Of a DNA stretch of 64,000 nt, positions 49,272 to 55,242 are shown piece by piece. The DNA is from Nocardioides sp. B-3. GTDB lineage: Bacteria > Actinomycetota > Actinomycetes > Propionibacteriales > Nocardioidaceae. The DNA is taken from positions 3,968,001 through 4,032,000 of the forward strand of contig NZ_CP087968.1 of assembly GCF_024703895.1 (NCBI RefSeq). The letters are read 5' to 3'. Positions within the stretch are counted from its first letter, which is position 1. Every line of letters starts with the position of its first letter. Below the pieces are notes generated by a model, which made no database searches, was not told where the DNA came from, and saw only the letters and a program-made list of their open reading frames with translations. A program made the position numbers and the translations under genes.

Positions 49272-49797
49272 ATGAAGCTGGCGCACGGGCGACTCGCAGC
49301 CGCGCTGCTCGCGGGCCTCATCAGTGTCGCCGTCGCCCCGGTGATCGCAGCTCCGGCCAACGCGGAGGTCTGGGCCGTGCCGCGCACCAGCTCGACGGCC
49401 ATCACCACTACGCAGTCCGACTTCGCCTCGTTCGAGGACGAGGTCATGATCGGGATCAACCGGGCCCGCAGGTCTGCGGGGCTGCGAGAGATCAAGTACT
49501 ACGACTCGTGCGTCGATCGGCTCGCCGAGGAGTGGGGCACCCGCATCGCCGCGACGGGCAGGTTCGCCCACCGCGACCAGCGCCACGTGCTCAAGAGGTG
49601 TCGTCAGAACTGGGTCGGCGAGTGCCCGGTCCAGGGGCACGTCCCTCACCCCGGCAACCATCGTGCAGGCATGGCTGGACTCCCCGGCACACCGGCAGAT
49701 CCTGCTGAAGCGCCGCGCCACGCGGACGGGGATCTCCATCACGACTGACGCCCGCGGCAACTACGTCGGCGTGCTCAACTTCAGCGACCCGACCTGA
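49272..49797 (+). CDS. secreted CAP-domain (SCP/PR1-like) protein (one frameshift)
   Basis: About 175 residues. A signal peptide ([20 protein letters not shown], cut near ANAEV) precedes a CAP domain with [20 protein letters not shown] (helix 1), [17 protein letters not shown] and [20 protein letters not shown] (the His and the G-E pocket). After an inserted G in a CCAGG site (49631-49637) it continues [20 protein letters not shown] and [20 protein letters not shown], ending [10 protein letters not shown]. Two Cys may form a disulfide. CAP proteins are found outside the cell in actinobacteria with no single activity. CGGAGG precedes the ATG. A close paralogue starts at 51587. Confidence 0.9.
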
Positions 49798-49804
49798 GTC
49801 ATCG

Positions 49805-50456
49805 TCAGGCCGGTACGGCGATCACGACGACGTTGCTGCGATAGCCCTCGCCGTCCCAGTCCTCGCAGGTGACAAGGATCAACCGACCCCGGACGCCTTG
49901 GCTGAACAGCGATCCCGCCCGCTGGGCGATCACGTCCTTGTCCGGGACCCGGACCGAGCGGACGACGTAGTCGATGACACCGCGGTCGGTGTGGACGATG
50001 ACGTCTCGGCCGGCCCGGACACGCTCGAGGTCGTCGAGGGCGCCGCCACCACCGTGCACGGTGTGACCGGTGAACAGGGCGCTGCCCCCGAGCAGCACCG
50101 GGCCGAGCACCGTCGCGCCACCACCCGAGCGACCGCGGGTCGTCCGGGGGCACGAGCCCGGACCCGTCGGTGGAGATCGGGACGACGGGTGCACTGATCC
50201 CCGGGGCCGGCACGACGACGCGGCGAGGCTGCCAGCCGAGCCGCGGCACCGCGCTGACGGGCCGGGGCTCGACACTGAGGCGAGCCCGGTCGCGCCGGAT
50301 GCCGGCATCGGTCATGACGGCCTCGGCGCTGCTGGCGGACCCCGCACGGTCGGCCGTGATCCAGCCGAGACCGGCGAGTGCCAGCAGGACCCCGACCGCC
50401 GCCGCCAAGCGGCGGCGGTCGGGACGTGCAGGCGGCGTCAGGGCCTGCTGGATCAA
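49805..50456 (-). CDS. class F sortase 1 (one frameshift)
   Basis: About 217 residues. An N-terminal helix RRLAAAVGVLLALAGLGWIT anchors it, then PRLGWQPRRVVVPAPGISAP and VVPISTDGSGLVPPDDPRSL. After a shift near 50125 the catalytic domain shows GGSALFTGHTVHGGGGALDD (active His), VIDYVVRSVRVPDKDVIAQR and GRLILVTCEDWDGEGYRSNV with the catalytic Cys and an Arg in Y-R-S-N, ending VVVIAVPA. Sortases cut a C-terminal signal of surface proteins and join them to the wall. The start is probably TTG 50456, overlapping the stop of the surface protein gene by TTGA; no ATG or GTG fits. It is the natural partner of the protein encoded just before it. Confidence 0.88.
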
Positions 50457-51151
50457 CGCCCCGCGTCGATCATGGTCGGCACCTTGACGTGACCGGCCGT
50501 GGCCCGGACGCCCTTGACCTCCACCTCGGGGGACTCCTCCCCGTCGGCGTTGTCGTCGTCCGACGCGGTGCTGGTGTCGAGCTCGGGACCGTCGTCCTCC
50601 GCCCGGACGCCGAGGACCGTCGGCGTGGCCGTGGGCGTCCGCGTGGCCGTGGGCGACTGCGACGAAGCCGCGGTCGCGGTCGTCGTGGGTGACGGCGTCT
50701 GGGTGCTGCTCGGCGTGGCCGAGGCGACCTTGGTGGGCGCCACCGTCGGCGTCGGCGTCGCCGAGAGCGACGGCGTCGGCGTCGGCGTCGGCGTCGGGAC
50801 CAGCGTCACGGTGTAGTGGCTGATGTCCTTGCCCGACGGGTGCGTGATCGTCACGGACGCGGCGGGCGGATCGACCACCACGTTGACGGGACCGTTCCCC
50901 TGCTGTGCCGAGCCGGCCTTCACGCAGTAGCCGCTGATGAGGAAGCCCTCCGGTGCCGTGTAGGTCAGGGTCCCGGTCCGAACCGTTCGACGGGAACAGG
51001 TGGCCGCTCTGCGGCTGGCAGACGGCCGCGGCCGCCATACCGGTGTTGCCGGGCGAATCCGCCTCGGGCCGCGGTGGACGTTGCCACCCAGCCCCCCAGG
51101 ACGATGACGGCCGAGGCCGCGATGGGACCTCCCATAGGCATGCGCGCGCAT
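50453..51151 (-). CDS. secreted Thr/Pro-rich surface protein 1, probable sortase substrate (two frameshifts)
   Basis: About 233 residues. A start at ATG 51151 (after GGAGAGG) leads into a hydrophobic export signal (GGPIAASAVIVLGGWVATST). After shifts near 51070 and 51000 comes a compact domain: TLTYTAPEGFLISGYCVKAG, VVVDPPAASVTITHPSGKDI and SHYTVTLVP, with single Cys residues suggesting disulfides (also AAVCQPQSGHL). A Thr/Pro/Ser stalk follows (PTPTPTPTPSLSATPTP and further), and the end is GHVKVPTMIDAGR. No LPxTG motif and no C-terminal membrane helix were seen. The paralogue at 54422-55242 has the same domain and a matching VPTxxxAG element but with a helix after it. It is co-translated with sortase 1. 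Wall attachment is inferred. Confidence 0.75.
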   Translation of the reverse strand: MRAHAYGRSHRGLGRHRPGGLGGNVHRGPRRIRPATPVWRPRPSASRRAATCSRRTVRTGTLTYTAPEGFLISGYCVKAGSAQQGNGPVNVVVDPPAASVTITHPSGKDISHYTVTLVPTPTPTPTPSLSATPTPTVAPTKVASATPSSTQTPSPTTTATAASSQSPTATRTPTATPTVLGVRAEDDGPELDTSTASDDDNADGEESPEVEVKGVRATAGHVKVPTMIDAGR

Positions 51152-51586
51152 ATGTTGTTCCTCTCCCCGATGGCAAGCCGTCCCGATACGGCTCGTGTAC
51201 TTGCCAGTAGCGGCCGCCGGGACAGCGGCCAAGCGCGGGAGACTAGCCCCTCCTGACCATGGGCCATGACCCGGATGGTCACATCGCGGAAAGTGCGCCT
51301 GACCCGATCGGGCCACGCCGTTGCACGAGCATGTGCGGGACCCACGCGTCGCGCGTGACGCTCGTCACTGAAGCAGCACCCTTCAGGGGGCCGGGGGGTA
51401 GTCATGCCGGACCGGGAATTAGGCTCTCCTCTTTTTTAGTGACTACCGTGCAGTAGTTCGTTGAAAACTTTCTGGTCAAACTGCGTCATGCTCCAAGGAC
51501 CAGAGCGTCTCAACGGAGACCTCAGCTCGAGGACCCCCGCCTCGAGGCCCCCCACTGAGGTGACCCCGAACCCCCACGGAGACCCC
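51152..51586. other. 435-bp divergent intergenic region
   Basis: No gene is supported here. It separates surface protein 1 (minus) from CAP gene 2 (plus) and should hold both promoters. An AT-rich island occurs at 51417-51470 and contains TTTTTT. It is partly framed by GGTAGTCA (51397-51404) and TGACTACC (51440-51447), an inverted repeat of 8 bp with 35 bases between. TTGAAAA at 51461-51467 could be part of a -35 region for the CAP gene; no clear -10 was found. Confidence 0.5.
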
Positions 51587-52094
51587 GTGAAGCTCTTCCG
51601 CGCCCTGATCCTGCCTGCCCCGGGAACGATCGTCTTCCTGTCCAGCCTCGTCGGTGCCCCGGCCCACGCCAGCCTCTCCCGCGTGCCAACCAAGGCCCCG
51701 GTCTCTGCCGCCGACAGCGGCGCTGCGTTCGAGTCCAAGGTCATGGTCGAGATCAACGATGCACGAGCACGCTTCGGCCTGAAGCCCGTCCGCTTCTTCG
51801 ACTCCTGCGTCGAGCGGATGGCCACCTCCCCGGGGCAACCACATCGCGACGACCGGCATCTTCGCCCACCGCGACCAGCACGAGGTCCTGCGCAAGTGCA
51901 ACCAGTCCCGGGCCGGCGAGAACCTCATCCGCGGCACCGGGCTCACGGCCCGCGCCATCGTCGACGCCCGGCTCAACTCCCCCTCGCACCGCGCCGTGCT
52001 CCTCAAGGGCCGCGCGACCCTCGCCGGCATGGCGGTCGTGATCGACGGCCGGGGCCGTCAGGTCGGCGTCCTCAACGTCGCCGACGCACACTGA
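51587..52094 (+). CDS. secreted CAP-domain protein 2 (one or more frameshifts)
   Basis: About 169 residues, paralogue of the gene at 49272. GTG 51587 follows ACGGAGA. The signal segment LILPAPGTIVFLSSLVGAPA (cut near AHASL) is followed by AAFESKVMVEINDARARFGL, KPVRFFDSCVERMATS, then after a shift in a C/G run at 51834-51843 NHIATTGIFAHRDQHEVLRK, NQSRAGENLIRGTGLTARAI, DARLNSPSHRAVLLKGRATL and VVIDGRGRQVGVLNVADAH. The G-E-N of the CAP pocket and the Cys pair (DSC, KC) are conserved with the first copy. It is transcribed towards the ABC exporter genes, with 67 bases between. Confidence 0.88.
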
Positions 52095-52161
52095 TCCACG
52101 CCTGACCCGGCCACGACCTGTGGCACGATCGGTCGCTCACGCGCACGGGGGCTGGATCTTG

Positions 52162-52956
52162 GTGTACGTCGCCATCGCGACGCGGGCTTTTCGCCGCTAC
52201 TCGACCTACCGTGCCGCCACCCTGTCCGGCATCTTCACCAACTCGGTGTTCGGCATCATCTACTCCTTCGCCTACCTCGCACTGTGGGAGGCGAACCCCA
52301 CTGCCGGTGGCTACGACAAGGTCGACGCGGTCACCTACGTCTGGCTCGGCCGAGCCCTGCTGATGACGGTCGCGCTCTGGGGCGGCGGCACCACCGACGA
52401 CCTGGCCGAGCGCATCCGCACCGGTGACATCGCCATCGACCTCTACCGCCCGATCGGCCTCGTGTCCCGGTACCTCGCCGCCGATCTCGGCCGGGCGCTC
52501 TTCCACCTGCTCACGCGCGGCCCGGCACCCACGATCGTCGGTGTGATCCTCTTCGACATCTCCCTGCCCGCCTCCCCCGCCGCGGCGCTGGGTTTCGCGT
52601 TCGCCGTACCCCTCGCGGTGGTCGTCAGCTTCGGCATCCGGTTCCTTGTGGCCAGCTCGGCCTTCTGGCTGCTCGACCAGTCGGGCGTGAAGGTGATGAG
52701 CGGTGCCTTCGCGATCTTCTTCAGCGGGATGATGCTGCCGCTCGTGCTGTTCCCCGGCTGGCTGGGCACGCTCGCGCGGGCACTGCCATGGGCGGCCTAC
52801 GTGCAGGTCCCGGCCGACATCTGGCTCGGCAAGCGTCCCGGCGCGGACCCGGTCGTCGCGCTCGGCTTCCGGGTGATGTGGGCGGTGATCCTGCTGTCGG
52901 CCTGCCTGCTCGTGGTGCGAGCCGCGACTCGCAAGGTGGTGGTGCAAGGTGGTTGA
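52162..52956 (+). CDS. ABC-2 type exporter permease, first subunit
   Basis: Intact, 264 residues from GTG 52162 (VYVAIATRAFRRYSTYRAAT); a longer reading from 52120 is possible but the family normally begins here. Six helices are visible, including GIFTNSVFGIIYSFAYLALW, LGRALLMTVALWGGGTTDDL, IRTGDIAIDLYRPIGLVSRY (the amphipathic coupling segment), ALGFAFAVPLAVVVSFGIRF and GAFAIFFSGMMLPLVLFPGW. This is the DUF990/ABC-2 permease group that pairs with a second permease and an ATPase. The next permease overlaps by eight bases, and the ATPase gene is at 55417, separated by the sortase 2 pair on the opposite strand. Exported substrate unknown. Confidence 0.88.
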   Translation: MYVAIATRAFRRYSTYRAATLSGIFTNSVFGIIYSFAYLALWEANPTAGGYDKVDAVTYVWLGRALLMTVALWGGGTTDDLAERIRTGDIAIDLYRPIGLVSRYLAADLGRALFHLLTRGPAPTIVGVILFDISLPASPAAALGFAFAVPLAVVVSFGIRFLVASSAFWLLDQSGVKVMSGAFAIFFSGMMLPLVLFPGWLGTLARALPWAAYVQVPADIWLGKRPGADPVVALGFRVMWAVILLSACLLVVRAATRKVVVQGG

Positions 52957-53754
52957 GGCCCTGCACCACTCTCGCCGCTACCTCGACATCGCCCGGCTCT
53001 GGGTCCGGGCCGCGTGGGCCTATCCGGCGTCCTTCATCATGTTGGCCGTCGGCAACGGACTGATCACCGGCCTCGACTTCATCGGGCTCTGGATCATGTT
53101 CAGCCACCTCGACGACCTCGCCGGCTTCTCCCCGGCCGAGGTCGCCTTCCTGTACGGCGCCGGCTCGGTCGGCCTCGGGATCGTGGACACCCTGATCGGC
53201 AGCGTTGAACGGATCGGCACCTACGTGCGCACCGGTCGCCTCGACCAGATGCTGACCAAACCGGTGCCGCTGCTGGTGCAGGTCTGCGCCGACCAGTTCA
53301 CGCTGCGTCGGCTCGGCCGGATCACGCAGGCCGTCGTCGTCTTCGGGTGGGCCTCGACGTACGTCGACTGGACGCCCGCGCGGTCCTCGTCGCCGTCTCC
53401 ATGATCGTGAGCGGTGCGGCGGTCTTCTTCGGGCTGTTCGTCGGCTTCTCGTGCATCCAGTTCTGGACCACCGACGCGACGGAGTTCGCCAACGCATTCA
53501 CGTACGGCGGAGCCACGGTCACGCAGTACCCGCTCTCGATCTTCCCGCGCGAGGTGATGGTGGCGCTCACCTTCGTGATCCCGGTGGCGTTCGTGAACTG
53601 GTATCCGGCGCTGTTCGTGCTCGGCCGCGACGACCCGTTCGGGATGCCGCAGTGGCTGCAGCTCGCCTCACCCCCGGCCGCGGTGGTCACCGTGGCGTTG
53701 AGCCTGCTGGTGTGGCGCACCGGGGTGCGGCACTACACGTCGACCGGGAGCTGA
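52949..53754 (+). CDS. ABC-2 type exporter permease, second subunit (one frameshift)
   Basis: About 268 residues. It starts VVEALHHSRRYLDIARLWVR, then AWAYPASFIMLAVGNGLITG, IGLWIMFSHLDDLAGFSPAE, FLYGAGSVGLGIVDTLIGSV and RLDQMLTKPVPLLVQVCADQ. After a shift near 53370 come ARAVLVAVSMIVSGAAVFFG, CIQFWTTDATEFANAFTYGG, QYPLSIFPREVMVALTFVIP and FVNWYPALFVLGRDDPFG. The segment from TKPVPL to RRLGRI is the typical cytoplasmic loop of this permease group. It overlaps the first permease by eight bases, so the two form a heterodimer. It meets the sortase 2 gene tail to tail with only 3 bases between the stops. Confidence 0.88.
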
Positions 53755-53757
53755 GGC

Positions 53758-54429
53758 TCACACCGGCCGGGCGATGACCACGACGTTGCCGGCGTAGCCG
53801 GTGCCGTCCCAGTCCTCGCAGGTGATCAGGACGAGTCGACCCCGGATGCCCCGGTTGAACAGGTGGCTCGACGCGCGGCTCACCCGCGTCTTGTCGTAGA
53901 TCTCGACGCGACTGACCCAGTAGTCGATGCTGCCGGCGTCCGTGCGAACGGTGAAGACGTCACCGACGACGAGTCGCTCGAGGTTGTCGAGCGCGCCACC
54001 GCCCGTGTGCACGGTGTGACCGGTGATGATCGCGCTCCCGTCCTTCGCGCCGGGCACCGCTCCGTCGGCCCACCACCCCGGGGTCTGCGGGTCCGACGGC
54101 GGCACCAGTGTGCTGACCTGCAGGTTGATCGGCACCACCGGCACATCGATCCCGAGGGCTTCGATCTGCACCCGGTTGGGCACTCCGGCACCGGCCTCCC
54201 TCGAGCGGGGTACGGCGACGTACCCCGCGGTCGCCGACGGCGGCCCGGTCACGGAGGGCCCGGAGTGCCGCACGAACTCCTTCGACGATGCGGCGCCCGC
54301 GCCGTCCCGCCCCGGTCCCGGGCGGCTGCCCGCGTAGTCGAGGGCGAGGATGAGAGAGCAGACCGCAAGACCGGCCGCGACGAGTCCGAGACTCGCGCGA
54401 CCGGCCTTGATTGCTCGATTCCTAGGCAC
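53758..54429 (-). CDS. class F sortase 2
   Basis: Intact, 223 residues. One N-terminal membrane helix (ASLGLVAAGLAVCSLILALD, 12-31) anchors it outside. Then come VPNRVQIEALGIDVPVVPIN (84-103), TPGWWADGAVPGAKDGSAII, TGHTVHTGGGALDNLERLVV with catalytic His 138, and GIRGRLVLITCEDWDGTGYA with catalytic Cys 204, ending GNVVVIARPV. Where sortase 1 has Arg in Y-R-S-N, this protein has Y-A-G-N, so the usual catalytic Arg is not obvious; R194, R197 or R221 may serve, or the enzyme may be impaired. The start overlaps the end of the surface protein 2 gene (eight bases). The pair lie between permease and ATPase genes of an ABC exporter. Confidence 0.9.
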   Translation of the reverse strand: MPRNRAIKAGRASLGLVAAGLAVCSLILALDYAGSRPGPGRDGAGAASSKEFVRHSGPSVTGPPSATAGYVAVPRSREAGAGVPNRVQIEALGIDVPVVPINLQVSTLVPPSDPQTPGWWADGAVPGAKDGSAIITGHTVHTGGGALDNLERLVVGDVFTVRTDAGSIDYWVSRVEIYDKTRVSRASSHLFNRGIRGRLVLITCEDWDGTGYAGNVVVIARPV

Positions 54430-55242
54430 GTCCCCTCAGGTGACGGGAGGAGATCAGGCCCGGGCCGATGGCGAGTGCCATCAGACCGGCCATGCCAGCC
54501 AGCCAGAGCTGGGTGCTGGACGAGGAAGCCTGCTGCATGTCACCGGAGAGACCAGCCGCGACCGTGGTCGGCACTGCTGCCTGCTCGCCGAGGACCTCGA
54601 CCTTGGGCTCGTCCTTGACCTTGGGCTCGTCCTTCTGCTTGACCTCGTTCTCGGCGGCCTGCTCACCCTTGACCTCGGGGGCCGCGGTGGGCTCGGACGT
54701 GGCGACCGTGACGGGCGGAGCCGCCGGGGTCGTGGCAGGCGTCACCGGTGTGGTGACCGGCGTCGTCAGGGGTGACCGGCGTCGTCGGGGTGACCGGCGT
54801 CGTCGGGGTGACCGGCGTGGTCGGCGTGGTCGGCGTGGTCGGCGTGGTCGGCGTGGTCGGCGTGGTCGGCGTGGTCGGCGTGGTGGGCGGCGGGATCGGG
54901 ATGGTGGTCACGCTGTAGTGGCTGATGTCCTTGCCCGACGAGTGCTCGATCGTGACTGACGCTGCGGGCGGGTCGACGAGCGTGTATTCAGGGACCGTCA
55001 CCCTGCTTGATCGAGCCGGCCTTCACGCAGTAGCCGCTGATGAGCTGCCCCTCGGGTGCGGTGAAGGTGAGCGACTTGGTCGTCTGGTTGTCCGGCTCGA
55101 GGTGCGTGCCCGTGCACACCCCTTCGTTGTCGTTGTCGGCCGCACTGGCGGCGGCAACGCCGAACGGTGCGACGGCCAGCAGCATGGTTCCGGCAAGTAG
55201 CGCCAGCGTGTTTCTCGTTCGCGATGGTGCGGTGGATCGCAT
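54422..55242 (-). CDS. secreted Thr/Pro-rich surface protein 2 with C-terminal membrane helix (two frameshifts)
   Basis: About 273 residues. ATG 55242 follows GGGGAG. Signal peptide NTLALLAGTMLLAVAPFGVA (cut near SAADN), then a domain with SLTFTAPEGQLISGYCVKAG, TLVDPPAASVTIEHSSGKDI and SHYSVTTIP, strongly like surface protein 1. A (Thr-Thr-Pro)n stalk coded by a 9-bp tandem repeat follows, then a charged stretch (ENEVKQKDEPKVKDEPKVEV). The end is LGEQAAVPTTVAAGLSGDMQ followed by a helix LWLAGMAGLMALAIGPGLIS and basic SRHLRGRA. That helix plus positive tail is the layout of a sortase sorting signal, with VPTTVAAG in place of LPxTG. Shifts are near 55000 and 54768. Overlaps sortase 2. Confidence 0.82.
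54814..54885. repeat. 9-bp tandem repeat, eight units, coding Pro-Thr-Thr
   Basis: GGCGTGGTC is repeated seven times exactly from 54814, with an eighth unit GGCGTGGTG (to 54885). Longer 18-bp units with GTGACCGGCGTCGTCGGG lie just to its left. It codes the Thr/Pro stalk of surface protein 2 on the minus strand and should vary in copy number. Confidence 0.9.

Follow-up and report, generated by a model that had tools for sequence, protein, structure and literature searches.

Class F sortases are common among actinobacteria, and a 2026 study of Actinoplanes, in its accessible portion, calls their physiological roles unknown and describes the deletion of four of them with no visible phenotype (PMC13251363). 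According to the same portion, the class F genes adjoin two proteins with an export signal, a membrane helix and a basic tail, which were set aside, no known pentapeptide being present (PMC13251363). The first enzyme of the class to be studied, SrtF of C. acnes, is the sole sortase of its species and, in the part of the review available, is described as resembling S. aureus SrtA in its action, that is, on LPXTG (PMC7913060). Asn in place of Arg has been reported for actinobacterial class F enzymes (PMC6998099, in extract). A departure from the second position of LPXTG is described for class E in the available section on Streptomyces SrtE1, whose signal is LAXTG (PMC5148588). Here we describe two sortase-surface protein pairs from Nocardioides sp. 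B-3 in which a sequence of the form P-T-x-V-x-A-G occupies the LPXTG place in the substrate C-terminus. They lie in a stretch of 64,000 nucleotides (contig NZ_CP087968.1, positions 3,968,001 to 4,032,000), hereafter the window, and all gene coordinates are window positions unless stated otherwise.

Both pairs are encoded on the minus strand. The gene for surface protein 2 (SP2; 54422-55242) runs from an ATG at 55242 to a TAG at 54422 and overlaps by 8 nt the gene for sortase 2 (53758-54429), which starts with GTG at 54429 and ends at 53758. In the other pair, the TGA stop of surface protein 1 (SP1; 50453-51151) at 50453-50455 overlaps the TTG start of sortase 1 (49805-50456) at 50454-50456, and the sortase gene ends at 49805. 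SP2 comprises an export signal, a domain shared with SP1, TTP repeats, the pentapeptide VLGEQ, the motif VPTTVAAG (54551-54574; profile match E 2e-8 over 54431-54574), a membrane helix and a basic tail. SP1 comprises the shared domain, a TP-rich stalk, VLGVR and the motif VPTMIDAG (50459-50482), which was read in the sequence. As regards the features of a sortase substrate, motif and basic tail were read in SP2 and in its N. allogilvus orthologue (L048), the C-terminal helix was found by hydropathy in L048, and the export signals were recognized by eye; in SP1 the helix is absent from the assembly. The LPXTG pentapeptide model (TIGR01167) did not match SP2, which has VPTTVAAG, at E <= 0.5. The sequence-only reading had described two sortase/surface-protein pairs (49805-51151 and 53758-55242) with a common gene order, overlapping stop and start codons, a common substrate domain and a CAP gene near each, and had seen in them a surface-display cassette; our analysis bears out this layout, and the sequence supports the cassette. 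The sorting signal, which that reading overlooked, is a more informative feature than the shared domain.

A genome collection was scanned with an alignment of 17 sortases, which gave 179 confirmed loci; the best 80 of these, belonging to Nocardioides, Kribbella, Mumia and their kin, were taken as a class F-like set. The open reading frame (ORF) upstream of the sortase ends with the strict pattern [VLIAMFP]P[TN]x[VIF]x[AS]G plus a helix in 66 of these 80 loci. Of the 3256 remaining ORFs in these loci, 10 end in this way, and nine of the ten resemble further substrates by eye. A wider pattern, which fits canonical class F as well, was found together with a membrane helix and a basic tail in 68 of 80 upstream ORFs and in 18 of 3623 other ORFs. 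When the comparison is confined to the 71 loci whose upstream ORF bears a helix and a basic tail, the motif is present in 68, and composition-keeping shuffles of these tails yield 7.3 on average and 16 at most. Conservation extends beyond the P and G that the strict pattern forces: among its 66 tails, A is found in all 66 (S being allowed) and T in 64 (N being allowed), V or I in 65 and D, N or E in 63.

Three further observations concern these tails. A short element, VLGx[QTENK], occurs at most 90 residues before the motif in 28 of 69 Nocardioides and Kribbella substrates (0.24 expected from shuffles), for example as VLGEQ at 54581-54595 in the window; canonical class F substrates have it in 3 of 59 (0.4 expected). 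In six Kribbella loci (L070, L074, L076, L089, L094 and L096, with ORF ends near 2.5-2.6 kb), another protein with [VL]PTAV[DN]AG and a helix lies upstream of the first substrate, so that these loci apparently hold two substrates per sortase. Two surface proteins (L008:295-1941 and L064:1059-2147) end in LPDTGV(RATSS) with no membrane helix, and SP1 (50453-50482) likewise stops after PTxxxAG; these ends may represent truncated anchors, errors or a helix-less form of the signal.

Both window sortases belong to the Pfam Sortase family (PF04203; gathering threshold 26.6 bits), sortase 2 with E 9e-20 (71.1 bits) and the unbroken piece of sortase 1 with E 5e-12 (46.2 bits). The class F model NF033748 was the top sortase-class model for both, and all 17 relatives match class F, with a best E in the set of 2.7e-25 versus 3.6e-8 for class E. 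We use the name class F-like because sortase 2 scores far below the NF033748 cut-off. The catalytic residues H77 and C143 of sortase 2 and its N154 in the Arg position (numbered from 54246) are invariant in 37 sequences, and all 80 class F-like loci have Asn at this position after the catalytic Cys. Asn is likewise found in 62 of 67 canonical class F loci by script and in L175 and L186 by eye, with Thr in L189, Asp in L193 and an interrupted gene in L191. Arg is present in 27 of 30 class E loci by script and in L234 and L244 by eye. An AlphaFold model of the sortase (37 sequences; predicted local distance difference test score, pLDDT, 87) has the sortase fold, superposing on 3re9 with Z 15.8 and a root-mean-square deviation (rmsd) of 2.5 over 127 residues. 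By sequence, the best match among solved structures had E 0.025 and is presumably a class C-type sortase entry. The genome also encodes a third Pfam sortase at contig positions 2540529-2540795 (L003, L047), which is class E-like (piece E 1.5e-13).

Signal and sortase also go together across the genus. A profile of 36 Nocardioides and Kribbella tails was run against 196 Nocardioides genomes, with thresholds of E <= 1e-5 for the signal and E <= 1e-10 for the sortase. The signal gave 66 matches in 58 genomes, all of which are among the 123 genomes with a sortase match, and none of the 196 genomes had a signal match without a sortase match (hypergeometric P 2e-15, a value that kinship and linkage make too small). 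In 65 genomes a sortase match was accompanied by no signal match at this threshold. At least 53 of the 66 signal matches lie within 2.5 kb of a sortase, and 13 lie away from any sortase, among the matches listed. Ten of these 13 were inspected, nine of which carry the motif and one of which (L295) is a false match. These nine unlinked, motif-bearing matches are better evidence than the P value, though several come from close relatives, and some genomes seem to carry substrates distant from the sortase.

A related signal accompanies class F sortases elsewhere in the phylum. The NCBIfam class F model was run against 296 genomes, 88 of which had a match at E <= 1e-8 and 36 a match above the cut-off, and 67 distinct canonical class F loci were hand-picked, mostly from the top of the matches listed. 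In 51 of them the upstream protein ends in P-x(2,3)-[VIMPA]-x-[TA]-G, a helix and a basic tail, with the consensus PxGGVx[TA]GxGG, compared with 2 of 1147 background ORFs; 58 loci have a candidate anchor, and against their 51 matches shuffles give 6.1 on average and 15 at most. The residue before Gly is T in 31 tails and A in 20. The signal was found upstream of none of 30 class E sortases within 1.5 kb flanks. As a further control we used 30 sortase loci of 12 genomes, seven from Nocardioides with no match to a window-type sortase and five from the same order that were not searched with it. Three of these loci match upstream and one downstream; three of the four matches are plain LPXTG or LPDAG forms and one is PGGVNAG.

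The canonical and Nocardioides forms have x-[V]-x-[TA]-G in common, which differs from LPXTG in having Val for Pro and keeps Thr/Ala-Gly. P and V are separated by three residues in 42 of the 47 canonical tails read and by two in five. The class F score of the sortase follows this spacing: it is 137.6-166.6 bits in the five loci with two residues versus a median of 188.5 bits in the 42 with three (one-sided p 6e-4), a comparison that omits four of the 51 tails (L158, L160, L162 and L189) and in which the loci are not independent. The lower scores that accompany two-residue spacing would fit a joint divergence of enzyme and signal.

The arrangement in the window resembles class F (NF033748) in that all scanned sortases match the model, Asn replaces Arg and the paired substrate signal ends in [TA]G; it differs in score and in the two residues between P and V of PTxVxAG, as against the mostly three of PxGGV. 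The GVDTG_CTERM model (NF058571), known here by its name, shares place, layout and the V-x-[TA]-G core, yet it has no match in the SP2 piece at E <= 0.5 and none in the window genome at E <= 0.01. The GVxTG form is already treated as a sorting domain by NCBIfam, and the PTxVxAG form of the window lies outside that model. Class E sortases with LAXTG also depart from LPXTG at the second position, but they keep Arg, and none of the 30 class E loci has a PTxVxAG or GGVxTG signal upstream within the flanks searched. C. acnes SrtF shares the class F name and differs in its described SrtA-like action; a 2.5 Mb genome of the same order (L207) has an Asn-type sortase beside a protein ending in GGGIHTG and a helix. 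In the open-licence literature we found no description of PTxVxAG or PxGGVx[TA]G as a class F signal; subscription papers lay outside the search.

These comparisons establish, at the level of sequence, the pairing, the motif and its conservation, its co-occurrence with the sortase and the change from Arg to Asn. We consider it probable that each pair consists of a dedicated sortase and its own substrate, and that the enzyme encoded alongside recognizes its substrate by PTxVxAG. The motif itself would best be explained as the form that the PxGGVx[TA]G signal of canonical class F sortases takes in Propionibacteriales. Once exported, the substrate would stay anchored in the membrane through its C-terminal helix and basic tail, whereupon the sortase encoded by the adjacent gene would cut it at P-T-x-V-x-A|G. 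That the bond cut is A|G appears somewhat more probable than not to us: in relation to LPXTG the signal would read x-V-x-[A/T]-G, with Val for Pro and Ala/Thr-Gly as the cleaved bond. The sortase Cys would retain the substrate as an acyl-enzyme and pass it to a peptidoglycan precursor, and the small beta-domain, whose role may be adhesion or binding, would thereby be placed outside the wall on its Thr/Pro stalk.

Several points weigh against this interpretation. Twelve of the 80 class F-like loci have no upstream motif, although nine of the twelve have no upstream ORF with a helix and a basic tail at all; one sequence, in L088, is a near miss (IPTEFPAG). Sixteen of the 67 canonical loci also go without, four of which carry AAGGVATG with no Pro, and L189, one of the 51 matches, looks spurious. 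The Val position of the 51 canonical tails is V in 31, P in nine, as in LPXTG, M in five, I in four and A in two. The sortases themselves miss the curated NF033748 cut-off of 166 bits, sortase 2 with 71.6-73 bits and the sortase 1 piece with 27.7. In the window, SP1 stops two codons past its motif (KVPTMIDAGR-stop) and has no membrane helix, which may be a real truncation or an assembly error. The described LPXTG activity of C. acnes SrtF, which bears the same class F label, differs from what we propose for PTxVxAG, again on the available part of the source (PMC7913060). Finally, the loci are related, so their counts are not independent events, and the motif patterns were drawn up after part of the same loci had been seen; the shuffles, the comparison with background ORFs and the search across the genus serve as safeguards against this last bias.

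Two other accounts of the motif have to be considered. The surface proteins could be ordinary sortase substrates whose LPXTG has drifted, with no separate signal, and their tripartite layout is indeed that of LPXTG substrates. Known anchor models also reach some of the tails: at E <= 0.1, the 36 PTxVxAG tails include eight matches to LPXTG_anchor (best 4.6e-4), five to GVDTG_CTERM (2e-3) and three to Microco_LAVTG (6.7e-5), GVDTG_CTERM matches 42 of the 51 canonical tails at E <= 0.01, and the nine canonical tails with Pro at the second position fit this account too. However, near-invariance of T (64 of 66) and of the last-but-one A (66 of 66) is not what drift looks like, the SP2 piece matches none of these three models at E <= 0.5, and the sortase differs in step with the signal, in its Asn for Arg and in the lower class F score that goes with two-residue spacing. 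We regard simple drift as unlikely. The motif might instead be the site of another membrane protease or a stop-transfer boundary, in which case the neighbouring sortase would serve other proteins and the substrate would be retained in the membrane or shed. SP1 and the two LPDTG proteins, which end at or just past the motif with no helix, would suit such an account, as would the fact that A|G cleavage is a prediction from sequence. Against it stand the adjacency in 68 of 80 loci, the presence of the sortase in all 58 genomes with the signal and the absence of the signal at the 30 class E loci, and we judge it more improbable still. Recognition of PTxVxAG by the adjacent sortase is the explanation that we retain.

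The domain shared by SP1 (50801-50971, unbroken) and SP2 (54905-55071, split by a frame break) is ~75 residues long, carries TAPEG-x-LISGYCVKAG, DPPAASVTI and SGKDISHY in both proteins, and has two Cys that are conserved in the four copies spanning both. No Pfam or NCBIfam family matched it above cut-off (best Pfam E 0.093, in one of five members). A model from five sequences is all-beta (pLDDT 80) and found no confident match in a fold search (best Foldseek E 0.1; best VIA Z 4.0, rmsd 3.3 over 72); a Plasmodium perforin-like domain reached a Foldseek probability of 0.95 but E 0.11. These weak matches are no evidence of a new fold. The domain occurs in 9 of 58 genomes searched (the window genome included), all of them Nocardioides, and seven of the nine contain a copy for which every sortase among the matches listed is on a different contig or more than 140 kb away; one of these seven has no sortase match. 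It is linked to the sortase in the window genome and in N. allogilvus. Among the 80 loci, it is part of the substrates of L048, L118 and L121 and lies downstream of the sortase in L079, the sortase-linked substrates that carry it coming from Nocardioides and Mumia. The domain was considered as the defining feature of the cassette and rejected, as copies are found at a distance from sortases too; this anchor bears many different heads, among which the domain is one. The earlier description of an unrecognised substrate domain holds in that no family matches above cut-off, and needs qualification in that copies are unlinked to sortases in seven of nine genomes. That reading would have been abandoned for a known secreted fold unlinked to sortases, and half of this was found: there are unlinked copies, and no known fold was matched with confidence. 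In L006, L007, L009 and L014, proteins with the shared domain hold a second stretch, FDW.WKY..P.C..LTV.YPS..., and, where complete, have no membrane anchor.

N. allogilvus (L046/L048) has one intact orthologous pair in the same neighbourhood, in the gene order PEBP-like gene (named by eye), CAP, two ABC-2 permeases, sortase, surface protein and ABC ATPase, of which Pfam backs the CAP and ABC genes. Its surface protein is unbroken and comprises an export signal (by eye), the shared domain, a long TTPPV repeat, VLGAQ, LPTQVAAG, a hydrophobic helix and ARRLRGRA. SP2 is its orthologue, with VLGEQ, VPTTVAAG, a helix and RHLRGRA in the window. In N. sediminis (L051:1454-4459), two sortase-substrate pairs stand in tandem, with VPSAINAG and VPTSINAG, in the same place between the CAP/ABC permease genes and the ABC ATPase gene.

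The window cassettes are frame-broken in the present assembly, a point that the sequence-only reading did not raise. Sortase 1 has a frame break within its catalytic domain, SP1 is frame-broken in its N-terminal part and reads into no membrane helix in the present frame, SP2 has at least two frame breaks, and both CAP genes are broken as well. The genome is 4.48 Mb in one contig with a completeness of 61%, and many frames across the window are broken. Together with such a completeness in a single contig, the breaks suggest to us that the assembly is rich in indels, and ORF ends in the window call for caution. On the plus strand between the cassettes lie two ABC-2 permease genes (52120-53754), the second frame-broken, whose N. 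allogilvus orthologues (L046) match PF06182.

CAP gene 1 (49272-49794, plus strand) is convergent to sortase 1, and CAP gene 2 (51587-52091, plus strand) has an intact N. allogilvus orthologue. Against PF00188, CAP 1 gives E 0.089 and CAP 2 no match; the CAP 2 orthologue scores 44.1 bits (gathering threshold 21.1), and a profile from related CAP genes matches both window genes. The proposed linkage of CAP proteins to the cassette is real and recurrent but modest and not general: CAP genes occur in 10 of the 80 class F-like loci, scattered over several parts of the sortase tree. A suspected sortase-CAP fusion at L127 was ruled out, the two lying in different frames. Outside Nocardioides, L184:637-1857 combines a CAP domain with S-layer homology repeats; it adjoins a class F sortase whose substrate ends in YPTRVDAGGGG.

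The two pairs had also been ascribed to one duplication. If it took place within this species line, CAP gene included, it would account for the collinear DNA likeness of the two blocks, which extends over the substrate domain and the start of the stalk (74.5% over 298 columns), the sortase (70.4% over 345) and the CAP gene (67.2% over 293). Over 93 columns, however, the likeness of sortase 1 is 73% to N. sediminis and 58% to sortase 2; sortase 2 in turn reaches 86% with N. allogilvus. A free quick tree groups sortase 1 with N. sediminis and two sortases from metagenome-assembled genomes (SH-aLRT 86). A single copy is present in N. allogilvus, whose orthologous 14 kb lack copy 1, whereas N. sediminis carries a tandem of two. 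From the copy numbers, the sortase likenesses and the free tree, it would follow that a duplication is older than the N. allogilvus split or that copy 1 was acquired. When sortase 1, sortase 2 and N. allogilvus are constrained to a single clade, the tree nevertheless gains 5.9 log units in likelihood over the free quick tree and is not rejected (approximately unbiased test, p-AU 0.59). Because this constrained tree is the likelier one, we leave a single duplication within the species line a chance only a little below even, its collinearity standing against the closer kinship of sortase 1 with N. sediminis.

Beyond the window, we lean towards the view that class F as a whole, with Asn for the catalytic Arg, reads P-x(2,3)-[V, less often P, M, I or A]-x-[T/A]-G and not LPXTG, that PTxVxAG is a dialect of this signal in Propionibacteriales, that sortase and signal co-diverged, and that a genome may hold several private pairs as well as distant substrates. 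Our confidence in this broader reading is kept moderate, since 20 of the 51 canonical tails have another residue at the Val position. It predicts V-x-[TA]-G in the two neighbour proteins of the Actinoplanes class F genes. A readable sorting signal would permit genome-wide prediction of substrates and make class F sortases testable in vitro, and protein labelling might gain enzymes whose tag is orthogonal to LPXTG.

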